This document shows, one piece after another, positions 44,948 through 50,846 of a DNA stretch of 64,000 nucleotides; the stretch's first letter is position 1, and every line of letters begins with the position of its first letter. The stretch is from Lutibacter citreus (lineage in GTDB: Bacteria > Bacteroidota > Bacteroidia > Flavobacteriales > Flavobacteriaceae). The DNA lies in assembly GCF_003260195.1 (NCBI RefSeq), contig NZ_QEIH01000001.1, forward strand, positions 682,001 through 746,000, written 5' to 3'. Below the pieces are notes generated by a model. The model had not been told where the DNA came from. It saw only the letters and a list, made by a program, of their open reading frames with translations, and did not search any database. A program made the position numbers and the translations under genes.

Positions 44948-45346
44948 ATGCCAGAATCACCAGAAAATAGATTAAAACAATCAAGGATTTATCAAAAATC
45001 TATTGATATTTTTCGTTTGACAAGACGTATTGCTGCGTATGTTACAAATGAAAAAGATATTAATTCTATGCATATTTCTAAATTAAAATCGGATAGGTAT
45101 GCAGATAATTTAGTAATGGATTCTTTAGGTTTAGTGCCAAAAGTTGCTGAAGCTGAAATTCAACAAAACCCAGTATTAAAATTAAAGTATGCAATGTCAT
45201 TGCAATATATAATTGATAGGTTGTATATAAATTGTGTGAAATTAGAAGATTCTAAAATTCAAGGAAAAGATTTTGTTCGTTTACTCAGAAAAGAATTAAA
45301 AAGTCTTAGAAAAATGCATAGACTTTACTTGAATTCTATGTTGTAA
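44948..45346 (+). CDS. Small four-helix-type protein of unknown function
   Basis: A 132-residue soluble, basic and almost wholly helical protein. The amphipathic pattern (SRIYQKSIDIFRLTRRIAAYV; LKLKYAMSLQYIIDRLYINCVKL; FVRLLRKELKSLRKMHRLYL) suggests a four-helix bundle, loosely like the proteins found in 23S rRNA intervening sequences, but I do not recognise a specific family. Good promoter, normal codon use and separate transcription argue that it is a real gene. Confidence 0.6.
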   Translation: MPESPENRLKQSRIYQKSIDIFRLTRRIAAYVTNEKDINSMHISKLKSDRYADNLVMDSLGLVPKVAEAEIQQNPVLKLKYAMSLQYIIDRLYINCVKLEDSKIQGKDFVRLLRKELKSLRKMHRLYLNSML

Positions 45347-45416: not shown

Positions 45417-46655
45417 ATGGTAGTTAAAAAATCTACATCTTATGATCTTGAAAATAGGATATTAGAATTAGAGTCTGAAATTAGTGAACTCAAAAATAAT
45501 GAATCCAAAAGTCAAATTATTAAGGCAGATTATACTCATTTATTGGATATAAATAAAAACGATTTTTATAAAAATATTTTAGAGGCTACACCATATATTT
45601 ATGTAGTAAAAGATATTAACTCGGTATATATTGAGGCAAACAAATCTTTTTGTGACTTTTTAGGGAAAAAAAAAGAAGAAATTATAGGTAAAACAGATTA
45701 TGATTTTTTTCCTAAAAAAGAAGCTGAGGAATATATTAAAGGAGATAAAGAAGTATTGGCTGGAAGGATTCATGGAAAAGAAGAATGGGAAGTTTTAGGT
45801 GGTGAAGGTTTAAAATGGTTAAAAGTTGCTAAGACTGTAATTTATAATGAAGATGATAAGGATAGTCCAATTGGAGTGCTTTGTTCAGTAACAGATATAT
45901 CATTTCAAAAAAGAACGGAAACTTCTTTAATTAAAAGTAAAAGAAAGCTCAAAGAGTTAAATGCTATGAAAAATAGCTTTTTTTCGATTATTGGTCATGA
46001 TTTAAAAACACCATTAAGCAATATAATTGGTTTTAGTAAATTGTCAATTGAAAATATTGAAAATTCTAATTTAGAAAAAGTTAAGGAATTTCTTAAAATA
46101 ATCCACTCTTCTGCAAATAAATCGTTTTTACTACTTAGTGATCTTCTTGAGTGGTCTAGATCTCATTCAGATAAAATTCAAATTAATGAAGAATCTATTA
46201 ACTTAAATAGTGTTATAGCTAATGCAATGGATATAACTTTTAAAAGTACAATAGATAAAAAGATAAAATTCAACATAATTTGCAATGAAGAATTGACTAT
46301 TAAATCAGATAAATATATTCTTTCTACAGTAATAAGAAATTTACTTTCTAATGCCTTAAAATTCTCATATATAGGAGGGGAAATAAAAATAGTTTGTTTA
46401 GAAGTAATAGAAAACAAAGTTAATAAAGGAGTTAAAATAATAGTTGAAGATGCTGGAGTTGGAATTAGTAAAGATAGTTTAAGCACATTATTTAAAATAG
46501 ATAAAACAATTTCTACAAAAGGTACAAATGGAGAAGTAGGTACAGGGTTAGGACTTATTTTATGTAAAGAATTTGTTGAAAAGATAGGAGGTAATATTAA
46601 AGTTGAAAGTGAACTAGGGAAGGGAAGTAAATTTATAGTAACCTTAAATAAATAA
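45417..46655 (+). CDS. Soluble PAS-domain sensor histidine kinase
   Basis: A 412-residue cytoplasmic kinase with no membrane segment. A coiled coil (about 8-35) is followed by a PAS domain (about 48-165: NILEATPYIYVVKDINSVYIEANKSF), a HisKA domain with H194 in SIIGHDLKTPLSNIIGFS, and a HATPase domain with N box VIRNLLSNALKFSY, G1 EDAGVGIS and G2 GTGLGLIL. No response regulator is encoded nearby, so it is an orphan kinase; the PAS ligand is unknown. Confidence 0.9.
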   Translation: MVVKKSTSYDLENRILELESEISELKNNESKSQIIKADYTHLLDINKNDFYKNILEATPYIYVVKDINSVYIEANKSFCDFLGKKKEEIIGKTDYDFFPKKEAEEYIKGDKEVLAGRIHGKEEWEVLGGEGLKWLKVAKTVIYNEDDKDSPIGVLCSVTDISFQKRTETSLIKSKRKLKELNAMKNSFFSIIGHDLKTPLSNIIGFSKLSIENIENSNLEKVKEFLKIIHSSANKSFLLLSDLLEWSRSHSDKIQINEESINLNSVIANAMDITFKSTIDKKIKFNIICNEELTIKSDKYILSTVIRNLLSNALKFSYIGGEIKIVCLEVIENKVNKGVKIIVEDAGVGISKDSLSTLFKIDKTISTKGTNGEVGTGLGLILCKEFVEKIGGNIKVESELGKGSKFIVTLNK

Positions 46656-46685: not shown

Positions 46686-47228
46686 TTATAAATTACAAAC
46701 GGTACAATCTTTTTTAGCCCTTAATTCACCTTGTAAAACACCTTTTTCATTAATTACATAACCACAGCAATCCATAAAACCTTTCGCAATTAGTTTACGA
46801 GCGCGTTGTATTTGAGATTTTACGGTTGGTAAGGGTAAGTTTAACGAGTCGGCAACTTCCTGTTGTTTAAGCCCTTTTATATCCGATAAAAATAAAGGGT
46901 CTCTATATTTTTTTGGTAGGTTTTTTAAAATACCTCTTAAACAATCTTTTTCGGAGTGATCTTGTTCTTCTAATTCATAATTTATTTCCAATTCAGGTAA
47001 ATCAAAAACAAGATTTTTAGATTTAAAATAATCCATAATAGAATTTCTAGCTATTGAGAAAACCCAAGGTTTAAGCTTATCTAAATCTTTTAATCTATGA
47101 ATATTTGTGTGAATTTTAATAAAAGTATCCTGCAAAATATCATCAGCAATAGTAGTATCTTTTACTTTGCTGATGATAAATTGTTTTAAATCTGTTGAAT
47201 ATTTATTCCAAACTTGATTTGTTGTCAT
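46686..47228 (-). CDS. sigZ: SigZ-type ECF sigma factor with cysteine-rich C terminus
   Basis: A 180-residue ECF sigma factor. Region 2 (about 8-75: ADDILQDTFIKIHTNIHRL, KPWVFSIARNSIMDYFK) and region 4 (about 95-150: LPKKYRDPLFLSDIKGLKQQEVADSL, PTVKSQIQRARK) are intact. After region 4 comes a 30-residue tail with C154, C155, C175 and C178 (MDCCGYVINEKG, KKDCTVCNL) that could bind a metal or form disulfides. No anti-sigma gene is adjacent. Instead the gene follows a 34-residue peptide with 11 cysteines by three bases, in the same frame, so they form one operon. Confidence 0.88.
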   Translation of the reverse strand: MTTNQVWNKYSTDLKQFIISKVKDTTIADDILQDTFIKIHTNIHRLKDLDKLKPWVFSIARNSIMDYFKSKNLVFDLPELEINYELEEQDHSEKDCLRGILKNLPKKYRDPLFLSDIKGLKQQEVADSLNLPLPTVKSQIQRARKLIAKGFMDCCGYVINEKGVLQGELRAKKDCTVCNL

Positions 47229-47231
47229 ATT

Positions 47232-47336
47232 TTAACAGTTACAATTTGTACAGTTACAATTATCGCAAGTACAGTTTTCACAGTTTCCAGTTTTGCAACC
47301 ATCACAGTTACAAGTGCATTCATTTTTATCTTTCAT
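47232..47336 (-). CDS. 34-residue cysteine-rich (metallothionein-like) peptide
   Basis: An ATG at 47336 (minus strand) opens a 34-codon frame ending in TAA at 47232, with 11 cysteines in repeated C-x-C and C-x-x-C spacing, finishing DNCNCTNCNC. There are no aromatic residues, as in metallothioneins. Only three bases separate its stop from the sigZ start, so the two are almost certainly co-expressed. Its cysteine pattern complements the CC and CxxC tail of SigZ, suggesting a metal or thiol sensor, buffer or anti-sigma-like partner; that is inference. It is too short for ordinary gene finders and is easily missed. Confidence 0.72.
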   Translation of the reverse strand: MKDKNECTCNCDGCKTGNCENCTCDNCNCTNCNC

Positions 47337-47405
47337 AATATTAAATTTTAAATTCACTTAGTAGACTGTGAAAAGACTAAAAAGATGCATTTAAAATAAA
47401 ATATT

Positions 47406-50400
47406 TTACATATTCCTTCTGTATTGTCCTCCAACTTCAAATAAAGCTTCTGTAATTTGACCAATAGAGCAAACTTTACAAGCTTCCATTAATTGTTCAA
47501 AAATGTTTTCATTATTAATAGATTTTTCTTTTAATAATTGAAGTTGTTTCGCTGTTTTTGATTTATTTCCTTTGTTTAAATTTTCAACAACAGCAATTTG
47601 ATATTGTTTTTCCTCTTCTGTAGCTCTAATAACTTCTTGAGGTAAAATTGTTGGTGAACCTTTACTGCTTAAAAAAGTATTTACACCAATAATTGGGAAT
47701 GCACCATTGTGTTTTAAAGTTTCATAATACAAACTTTCTTCTTGTATTTTACTGCGTTGGTACATAGTTTCCATAGCGCCTAAAACTCCTCCACGATCTG
47801 TAATTCTATCAAATTCAACATAAATTGCTTCCTCAACCAAATCTGTTAGTTCTTCAATAATAAATGATCCTTGAATTGGATTTTCATTTTTGGTTAACCC
47901 TAACTCCTTATTAATAATTAGTTGAATAGCCATTGCTCTTCTTACGCTTTCTTCGGTTGGCGTTGTAATTGCTTCATCATATGCATTGGTGTGTAAACTA
48001 TTACAGTTGTCGTAAATTGCATACAAAGCTTGCAGTGTTGTTCTAATATCATTAAAATCTATTTCTTGCGCATGTAAACTTCTTCCAGATGTTTGAATAT
48101 GATATTTTAACATTTGAGCTCTTGGGTTTGCTCCATATTTATGTTTCATGGCTTTTGCCCAAATTTTACGAGCAACTCTTCCAATTACAGCATATTCTGC
48201 ATCAATTCCGTTAGAGAAAAAGAATGATAAGTTTGGACCAAATTTATTTATGTCCATTCCTCTTGAAAGATAATACTCTACATACGTAAAACCGTTTGCT
48301 AAGGTAAATGCTAATTGTGAAATTGGATTTGCTCCAGCTTCCGCAATATGATATCCTGAAATGGAAACAGAATAGAAATTTCGAATGTTGTTTTTAATAA
48401 AATATTCTTGAACATCACCCATTAACCTCAATGCAAATTCAGTAGAAAAAATACACGTGTTTTGAGCCTGATCTTCCTTTAAAATATCAGCTTGTACAGT
48501 TCCTCTTACTTTTGAAATAGTTTCGTTTTTTATTTTATTATAAATTTCTGAAGGTAAAACTTCATCTCCAGTAATACCTAATAAAAGCAGTCCTAAACCG
48601 TTATTTCCTTCTGGTAAATCTCCTTGGTATTTAGGTCTTTCAACTCCTTTTTTACTGTAAATAGCAGCTATTTTTTCTTCAATTTCTTTTTCTAAATTAT
48701 TTTCAATAATGTATTTTTCACATACCTGGTCAATGGCAGCATTCATAAAATAACCTAGCATCATTGGTGCTGGACCGTTAATTGTCATTGAAACAGAAGT
48801 CGTAGGATTTGTTAATTCAAAACCAGAATATAATTTTTTTGCATCATCTAAACAGCAAATTGAAACACCTGCATTTCCTATTTTACCATAAATATCTGGA
48901 CGTATATTTGGGTCGTTTCCATATAATGTTACAGAGTCAAAAGCTGTTGATAATCGTTTAGCAGGTAAGCCTAAACTTACATAATGAAATCTTCTGTTGG
49001 TACGTTCTGGACCACCTTCACCGGCAAACATTCTTGTTGGATCTTCACCTGTTCTTTTAAAAGGAAAAAGACCAGAAGTATATGGAAATTCTCCAGGAAC
49101 ATTTTCTTCTAAATTCCATAATAACAAATCTCCCCAGGCTTCATATTTTGGTAAAGCTATTTTTGGAATTTGAGTGTGAGAAAGTGATTCGCTATGTGTT
49201 TTAATATTTATAACTTTATCTCGTACTTTATATGAATACAATTCATTTTTATACGATTGTTTTTTAGCTTCCCAGTTTAAAATAATATTCCAATTATGAG
49301 GATTTAAATTTAGTTTAACCTTTTCAAATTGTGCTAAAAGTAATTTTATAAACGGAATTTCGTCATTCTGAACTTGTTTCAGAATCTCATCATTATCTAA
49401 TCCAGATGTTATAATAAGAGATTGCTTTGTTTCATTCGCAAAGACAGAAAGAATTGTTTTATAAATACCATATAATTTTTGAGCAATTTCTTTTTGTGCT
49501 ATACTTGCTTTGCTATAAGCTCTATTGTTTTCAGTAATTTCTGATAAGTAACGGGTTCTGTTAGGAGGAATAATAAATTGTTTTTTACTTAATTTATCAT
49601 CTAATATAAAAGAACTTTTAAAATTGCTTGCTGTTTTTTCGTTCAGTTTTTTAATAAGAACAGTGTATATTTCATTGGTTCCTGGATCGTTAAATTGCGA
49701 AGCAATAGTTCCATAAACGGGCATAGTTTCAACATCATTTTCCCATAAATTATGATTGCGTTGGTATTGCTTTTTAACATCGCGCAAGGCATCTAAAGCA
49801 CCACGTTTGTCAAATTTATTTAAAGCAATAACATCGGCAAAATCAATCATGTCAATTTTTTCTAATTGCGTTGCAGCACCATATTCTGGGGTCATTACAT
49901 ATAAAGAAACATCAGAATGATCTAATATTTCTGTATCACTTTGCCCAATTCCAGAGGTCTCTAAAATAACCAAATCAAAACCAGCAACTTTTAAAATATC
50001 AACGGCATCATTTACATGTTTTGATAGCGCTAAATTTGCTTGTCTGGTAGCCAAAGAACGCATATAAACACGTTCGTTTTTAATAGAATTCATTCTAATT
50101 CTATCACCTAATAGTGCTCCTCCAGTTTTTCTTTTTGAAGGATCAACAGAAACAATTGCTATTGTTTTTTTAGGGAAATCAATTAAAAAACGTCTAACAA
50201 TCTCATCAACTGTAGATGATTTCCCTGAACCACCAGTTCCTGTAATTCCTAAAACAGGAATTTTAGATTGTTTTGATCGTTTTCTAATTTCAGAAATAAA
50301 ATTAATATGTTTTTCTGAAAAATTTTCAGCTCCCGAGATTGTTTTTGCTATTTGATGGGAGTTTTTATTTGCTAACTCTTCAATATTAAAATCAATAAAC

Positions 50401-50846
50401 TCACCGGTTGCAAAATCACTTTTTTCAACCATATCATTAATCATACCTTGCAAGCCCATTTCTCTGCCATCATCTGGAGAATAAATACGAGTAATTCCGT
50501 AATCCATTAATTCTTTAATTTCTTCAGGAAGAATTACACCGCCTCCTCCTCCAAAAACTTTAATGTTTGAAGCTTCTTTTTCCTTAAGTAAATCATACAT
50601 ATATTTAAAATACTCGTTATGACCTCCTTGGTAGGATGTTAGTGCAATTGCATTTGCTCCTTCTTCAATAGCGCAGTTTACAACTTCTTCAACACTTCTG
50701 TCGTGACCCAGATGGATTACTTCAACTCCTGTTGCCTGAATAATACGTCTCATTACGTTAATTGATGCATCATGCCCATCAAAAAGTGAGGCTGCAGTAA
50801 CAATTCGTATTTTATTTTTGGGTTTATATGGTTTAATTTTGTTCAT
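47406..50846 (-). CDS. icmF: IcmF, fused B12-dependent acyl-CoA mutase with G-protein chaperone
   Basis: An 1146-residue fusion: B12-binding domain (about 10-140; H25 in FDGHDAS as cobalt ligand), MeaI-type GTPase (about 180-410; P-loop GTGGSGKS 203-210, [27 protein letters not shown]), a linker region, and the mutase barrel (about 560-1110; [36 protein letters not shown]). IcmF interconverts isobutyryl- and n-butyryl-CoA, sometimes other branched acyl-CoAs. Odd point: residues about 485-496 ([12 protein letters not shown]) are encoded by an exact copy of the intergenic repeat found at 29851, inserted in frame in the linker. Confidence 0.92.
49361..49392. repeat. Dispersed repeat, 32 bases, copy 2 (inside icmF)
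   Basis: Identical over 32 bases to 29851-29882, but inside a coding region. Read on the minus strand it encodes [10 protein letters not shown] with no frameshift or stop. Confidence 0.9.

Follow-up and report, generated by a model that had tools for sequence, protein, structure and literature searches.

The locus lies on the minus strand of the window, the whole 64,000-nucleotide stretch of Lutibacter citreus DNA analysed here, where a gene for a very small cysteine-rich peptide precedes a gene for an ECF sigma factor. The features are as follows:

47406-50846, minus strand: gene for a 1146-aa protein, which we take to be mutase-like, directly upstream of the operon.
47362..47389, minus strand: ECF-type promoter, with the -35 element TGCATC at 47384-47389 and the -10 element GTCTA at 47362-47366.
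47232..47336 (stop codon included), minus strand: gene for a putative metallothionein-like peptide of 34 aa with 11 Cys.
46686..47228, minus strand: sigZ, ECF sigma factor gene, 180 aa (assigned from curated models, Pfam and PDB folds).
46941..46943, minus strand: Cys96 of SigZ, located between regions 2 and 4 (invariant in an alignment of 57 SigZ).
46764..46769, minus strand: Cys154-Cys155 of SigZ, where the last helix of the model ends (likewise invariant in the 57 SigZ).
46695..46706, minus strand: C175-x2-C178 in the SigZ tail (C175 is invariant in this alignment, and C178 is present in at least 90% of the 57 sequences).
45417-46655, plus strand: convergent histidine kinase gene, downstream of sigZ.

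The peptide frame starts with the ATG at 47334-47336 and ends with the TAA at 47232-47234, and it is the frame of 34 residues and 11 cysteines with C-x-C and C-x-x-C repeats that had been described in a sequence-only reading of this DNA. When 47232-47336 is read on the plus strand, no cysteine richness is seen. One 30-residue open stretch in the window reaches 11 cysteines; when the 64 kb were dinucleotide-shuffled 20 times, the maximum per shuffle lay between 5 and 7. Three nucleotides separate the stop codon from the sigZ start at 47228, and this short gap, together with the promoter upstream, points to co-transcription of the two genes.

Relatives of this gene pair were collected from several samples. 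In a sample of 38 genomes from the same genus, a SigZ with at least 44% identity was found in nine, and in all nine loci the peptide stands directly upstream. No SigZ match better than E 9.5e-31 was obtained from the other 29 genomes, and the system is therefore dispensable. One genus genome lacking a peptide match carries a partial SigZ match of 41% identity with four stops (G005:C3:81485-81781), which is perhaps another decayed copy. The family sample comprised 397 genomes from 237 genera of what is presumably the Flavobacteriaceae. The peptide was matched in 65 of these genomes, once in each, and in 45 of the genera. A search of the same 397 genomes with SigZ gave matches at E 1e-35 or better in 93: 51 genomes reached 6.6e-57 or lower, G093 followed with 5.9e-48, and the remainder began at 2.1e-46. 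G093 was counted into the SigZ clade (n = 52) on account of its peptide; in the scores themselves the clear gap comes before this genome. Peptide matches were absent from all 41 genomes in which SigZ was matched only more weakly.

Conservation of a cysteine-rich frame upstream of sigZ, on which the sequence-only reading had staked its case, is borne out by these samples. The peptide adjoins SigZ upstream in 51 of the 52 family genomes of the clade, and in the exception (G224) the promoter is kept while the peptide frame is broken and SigZ has two stops, a case of joint decay. It also precedes sigZ in each of the 80 best loci from named genomes, among them genomes of Tenacibaculum, Polaribacter, Winogradskyella, Lutibacter, Lacinutrix and Algibacter; the scan behind these loci was seeded with SigZ and the best 80 of 531 relatives were taken, so that it is biased to the SigZ clade. 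The distance is within 450 nt in 79 of the 80, and in the remaining locus, L125, a methyltransferase-like gene stands between peptide and sigZ. The set of 137 linked loci used below combines 79 from the named genomes, 51 from the family sample and 7 from the genus; these loci overlap in species and hold 127 distinct peptides. Wider samples gave matches in 5 of 395 (phylum) and 6 of 296 genomes (order), all from the same family, with the share of other families in these samples unstated. On a SigZ tree (n = 153) the linked label needs two changes, or one in 75% of bootstrap trees; these label changes are unsure because of the long branches of L017/L018, L110 and L082. When phage and plasmid records were searched with SigZ (38 and 1593, respectively), all were below 60% identity.

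The cysteine spacing of the peptide, C-x-C-x-C-x2-C-x4-C-x2-C-x-C-x2-C-x-C-x2-C-x-C, is exact in 136 of the 137 linked copies, the exception being L166 with 10 Cys. Cysteine accounts for 32.8% of residues over the linked copies, arranged in CxC and CxxC motifs. None of 136 cores contains F, W or Y, and His occurs in seven. Constraint extends to other residues: among the 123 distinct cores with this spacing, Gly is found at position 11 in 111, Thr at position 17 in 109 and Asn at position 27 in 118. In the nine genus copies all 11 cysteines are invariant, even though both TGT and TGC are used in 10 of the 11 columns, and omega ranges from 0.05 to 0.47 in the 17 printed pairs (of 36 genus pairs, with about 15 synonymous sites each). 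The frame thus shows the purifying selection that was to be expected if the first description had picked out a true gene. A chance open reading frame of low complexity would likewise be short, repetitive and free of significant matches to curated families; given conservation in 45 genera, purifying selection, a fixed promoter and a cysteine density above that of shuffled sequence, this explanation has a negligible probability.

When 69 members were compared with Pfam and NCBIfam, the only matches had E values of 0.04 or worse and were to unrelated families; no model of a known metallothionein family or of an anti-sigma family matched. A PDB sequence-profile search with the peptide gave no match up to E 10, and its structure model (pLDDT 66.5) is too weak for a fold search. 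Fixed CxC/CxxC spacing without aromatic residues is the metallothionein pattern, and judged by its sequence the peptide looks like a small protein of this kind. It is much shorter than SmtA or MymT. Like the bacterial metallothioneins of the cyanobacterial SmtA/NmtA type and mycobacterial MymT, it is small and cysteine-rich with CxC and CxxC motifs; unlike theirs, its gene, for which no metallothionein model gives a match, lies at a sigma factor promoter, whereas the SmtA, NmtA and MymT genes are controlled by repressors. MymT is described as metal-regulated (PMC10141476), and NmtA as being under an SmtB/ArsR-family repressor (PMC8790569).

In the SigZ protein, Pfam regions 2 and 4 are detected and the best PDB folds are ECF sigma factors. 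The best curated matches are to the models of Bacillus subtilis SigZ, NF007215 (171.6 bits against a cut-off of 212) and TIGR02959 (157.9 against 168.65). They cover the full length including the tail, yet both stay below the cut-off, and the name SigZ is used here as a convenience label. The CC at 154-155 and the C-x2-C at 175/178 that had been noted behind region 4 are present, forming the tail pattern CC-x19-C-x2-C. In the SigZ model (pLDDT 82.5, pTM 0.44) the CC pair ends the last helix and is followed by a short hairpin and then by the C-x2-C end; neither this model nor that of the peptide gives the cysteine geometry. The absence of an adjoining anti-sigma gene in the window is likewise confirmed, the neighbours being the 1146-aa gene and the convergent histidine kinase gene.

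A short cysteine tail behind region 4, a cysteine in or near the linker, the lack of a neighbouring anti-sigma gene and a metal context are features that SigZ shares with CorE and CorE2 of Myxococcus xanthus (ECF44, now ECF238). In CorE, a CxC is reported in the linker and four conserved cysteines (181, 184, 192 and 194) in the cysteine-rich domain (PMC8999054; PMC3107203), and the cysteine-rich tail is reported to sense copper without an anti-sigma factor (PMC3107203). SigZ differs in having a single linker cysteine (C96) rather than a CxC, and its tail does not follow the 181/184/192/194 pattern; the linker CxC is, according to the same source, missing from most ECF238 members too (PMC8999054). 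The targets also differ: a multicopper oxidase and copper ATPases are named for CorE, and the small cysteine-rich peptide and sigZ itself are predicted for SigZ. A full-text literature search on SigZ returned passages in which no metal role for it was found.

The promoter in the window has a 17-nt spacer that starts with TTTTT. Its general form, TGCRTC-N17-GTCT, is located approximately 27 nt before the peptide start and occurs exactly in 130 of the 137 linked loci, in none of the 14 loci where the peptide is unlinked to a clade SigZ, and in no mononucleotide shuffle (50 per locus). This match between site and SigZ clade leads us to infer that SigZ reads TGCRTC-N17-GTCT. A strict form, TGCRTCTTTT-N13-GTCTW, has 59 matches in 60 genomes, against two for the reversed pattern. 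Fifty-two of these are at the operon, one per genome (the broken G224 included), seven are elsewhere, and 8 of the 60 genomes have none; the operon promoter is nearly unique in each genome. Of the strict sites away from the operon, those in G119 and G167 lie before CDF cation-efflux genes and that in G345 before a DUF3703 gene. The site in G236 precedes a gene for a flavoprotein with weak matches to ArsO and YpdA models, behind a second SigZ. The three others, in the window's own genome (G000; L038), G026 (L043) and G334 (L219), have no gene in sense and were taken as chance. Because the L038 site is the sole other strict site of the window's genome, the link to DUF3703 and CDF genes rests on relatives.

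In the surroundings of the 80 named loci (652 kb in all), the N17 form gave 94 matches and the reversed pattern one. The 94 comprise 77 operons, the L125 operon, 15 DUF3703 genes and an interrupted DUF3703-like frame (L155). DUF3703 genes are present in 23 of the 80 loci, 8 of which lack the exact site, and all 10 of the 15 promoter-bearing genes that were run against Pfam are DUF3703. No account of DUF3703 was found in a full-text literature search. Of 39 plasmid records that contain DUF3703, four were inspected, and in each the gene lies amid metal-resistance genes: CzcA and CDF; CzcA and a heavy-metal P-type ATPase; mer, CadR and CDF; and CadR and a cation transporter. The CDF gene was rejected as a general target, as the promoter site is found at only 4 of 30 CDF loci with up to one mismatch, including those in G167 and G119 (L245).

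The promoter type is not restricted to loci with the peptide. In 19 of the weaker family SigZ loci (L197-L214 and L216) there is no N17 site, and with spacings of 16-18 allowed 17 still have none; the other two, L208 and L213, have N16 sites at two places, upstream of sigZ and upstream of a gene for an ArsM-type methyltransferase. Similarly, L016 has an N17 site before sigZ and an N16 site before arsM. TGCGTC-N16/17-GTCT thus precedes both genes in L016:600-2094, L208:1400-2900 and L213:640-2060, and in L213 one more site, the third, stands ahead of a membrane-type open reading frame that contains cysteine. For the methyltransferase genes of L208 and L016 the score exceeds the cut-off set for the arsenite methyltransferase model, and that of L213 was judged by eye. 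Two extra sites found with spacings of 16-18, at 2532 on the plus strand of L016 and on the minus strand of L208, were taken as chance. In L017 and L018 (minus strand), an N17 site precedes a peptide of 42-43 residues that ends in SRRYC and lies between sigZ and a gene that, by eye, resembles arsM; this peptide might be a second small partner belonging to a SigZ clade. A CC pair with a later tail cysteine is present in all 19 sibling SigZ proteins and in L016, while L017 and L018 lack the CC pair. Judged from these sequences, promoter type and metal(loid) context reach beyond the peptide-linked clade, though not to all SigZ.

The sequence-only reading had proposed a metal- or thiol-responsive system, and it is to metal that the neighbourhood of the promoter sites points. 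If the signal were instead disulfide, electrophile or NO stress, SigZ would act as a thiol switch, with the peptide serving as a buffer or scavenger of thiol type. The conserved ligands are all cysteines, and cysteine tails could act as redox switches; in addition, 17 of the 80 named loci have a gene for a YpdA-like thiol reductase at a distance of up to 4 kb, which may be plain synteny, and the G236 flavoprotein has its weak YpdA and ArsO matches. The other sites, at CDF and DUF3703 genes, and the sibling SigZ at arsenite methyltransferase genes speak against thiol stress, and a redox buffer would not need fixed CxC/CxxC spacing without aromatics. We consider this alternative unlikely, and the metal reading, itself circumstantial, is preferred.

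In the region between peptide and sigZ, the gap modulo 3 is 0, 1 and 2 in 40, 53 and 44 of the 137 loci, respectively. The 3-nt, in-frame junction of the sequence-only reading is therefore accurate for the window, but the shared frame is not conserved, and a readthrough fusion of peptide and SigZ was rejected on the same grounds. A stem of at least 14 pairs, with one mismatch allowed, is found in 85 of 117 distinct intergenic regions of at least 35 nt, compared with 1.7% of mononucleotide shuffles; a laxer criterion was dropped as uninformative (104 of 125 observed against 49% of shuffles). Such a hairpin suggests partial termination or processing that would leave the peptide as the main product. 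The window's clade, with a gap of 1-3 nt, has no intergenic hairpin, and peptide and SigZ may thus be made more evenly there. The motif GTANNTTTA, expected in 3.4 of the 117 intergenic regions, is present in 35; it frequently lies 10-14 nt ahead of sigZ (for example, in L123 and L132) and might be a vegetative promoter that supplies basal SigZ. No enrichment in these 117 regions is seen for the classical TANNTTTG (5 against 8.5 expected).

A short cysteine-rich frame with a hairpin behind it, as in 85 of the 117 intergenic regions, is also what a leader peptide would look like, with ribosomes stalling at the cysteine codons in cysteine shortage and so controlling a terminator before sigZ. Cysteine-responsive attenuation exists in mycobacteria, where a short cysteine-rich frame likewise lies upstream of a gene; the polycysteine short frames described there have contiguous cysteine codons (PMC9031893). 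Here, in contrast, between 1 and 4 other residues stand between successive cysteines in all but one of the 137 linked copies, and the conserved Gly, Thr and Asn of the core are non-cysteine residues. Moreover, the gap in the window's clade is too small for a hairpin, a whole gene separates peptide and sigZ in L125, and peptide copies persist without SigZ. A leader function is thus highly improbable.

With respect to its wider surroundings, the 1146-aa neighbour is 77% identical to that of L174, and the same neighbour is present in 38 of the 80 named loci, which indicates a common home site for the operon. Four loci of the same genus (L012-L015) have a different sequence upstream. On the other side, the window encodes at 44948-45346 a 132-aa protein with no significant Pfam or NCBIfam match, and a relative of it (33% identity to that of L179) adjoins the operon in 27 of the 80 named loci.

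The peptide might also act on SigZ itself, as an anti-sigma factor that binds its cysteine tail, perhaps through a shared metal. The strict pairing and joint decay of the two genes would fit, and ECF factors often have a partner encoded alongside. The 14 of 65 family peptides that have no clade SigZ downstream bear on this question. Ten of them keep the exact 11-cysteine spacing; of the rest, L100 retains all 11 Cys but one is out of place, L078 lacks three, L103 is interrupted and L109 is atypical. These unlinked peptides, none with the promoter site, suggest that the peptide is used without a clade SigZ, although convergence could also account for them. By eye, the unlinked peptides of L092, L100 and L106 adjoin a metallo-hydrolase-like gene (of the TVLGxAQDAGYPHIGC type), and a His-rich CDF-like gene is also nearby in L092 and L106. 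The retention of the spacing in copies without SigZ downstream argues against an anti-sigma role, as does the lack of a match to any anti-sigma class, and CorE-type factors are reported to function without an anti-sigma factor (PMC3107203). We regard such a role as improbable. The sequence-only reading had given the peptide as one option control of the sigma factor through the cysteine tail; this part of its proposal is disfavoured, both by the unlinked copies and by the hairpin, which suggests that the peptide is the main product.

The explanation that we favour, and hold to be somewhat probable, is an autoregulated metal-response operon with a self-sensing SigZ, a metallothionein-like effector and feedback by sequestration. 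SigZ, with no adjoining anti-sigma gene, would sense a thiophilic metal through Cys96, Cys154-155 and C175-x2-C178, and in this it would operate in the manner of CorE. SigZ itself is the likely sensor because of the conserved promoter, the sites at DUF3703 and CDF genes, and the sibling clades at arsenic genes, none of which had featured in the sequence-only reading. Metal-loaded SigZ would direct RNA polymerase to the TGCRTC-N17-GTCT promoter, from which the 11-cysteine peptide would be transcribed first and sigZ second, and in most relatives the hairpin would keep sigZ output under that of the peptide. The peptide would then sequester the metal, lowering the signal and switching SigZ off. 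As in some species the promoter stands at DUF3703 and CDF exporter genes, divalent metals of the Zn/Cd type would be somewhat more probable than copper.

A broader reading is put forward more tentatively, as one that may well prove wrong. SigZ-type factors of the Flavobacteriaceae could be self-contained metal(loid) sensors that act through their own cysteine tail and are distinct from CorE. One promoter type would then control clade-specific detoxification genes, arsenite methyltransferase in some clades and a metallothionein here. The peptide could strip metal directly off the sigma tail, giving a minimal homeostat of one sigma factor, essentially one promoter and one 33-residue effector.

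Among the literature matches listed, the titles and abstract openings describe no pairing of SigZ with a metallothionein. Both halves have known analogues, and the arrangement would therefore be new while its parts are of known kinds. From its sequence, this combination of a tiny cysteine-packed protein with its own sigma factor looks like a self-regulating metal-mopping kit of many marine bacteria. If this is correct, the Flavobacteriaceae would possess a widespread metallothionein-like gene that is absent from Pfam and NCBIfam, and this group of SigZ factors would gain a likely signal and a promoter. The operon would also be a compact case of a ligand-sensing sigma factor that devotes nearly all of its output to one tiny effector and to itself.
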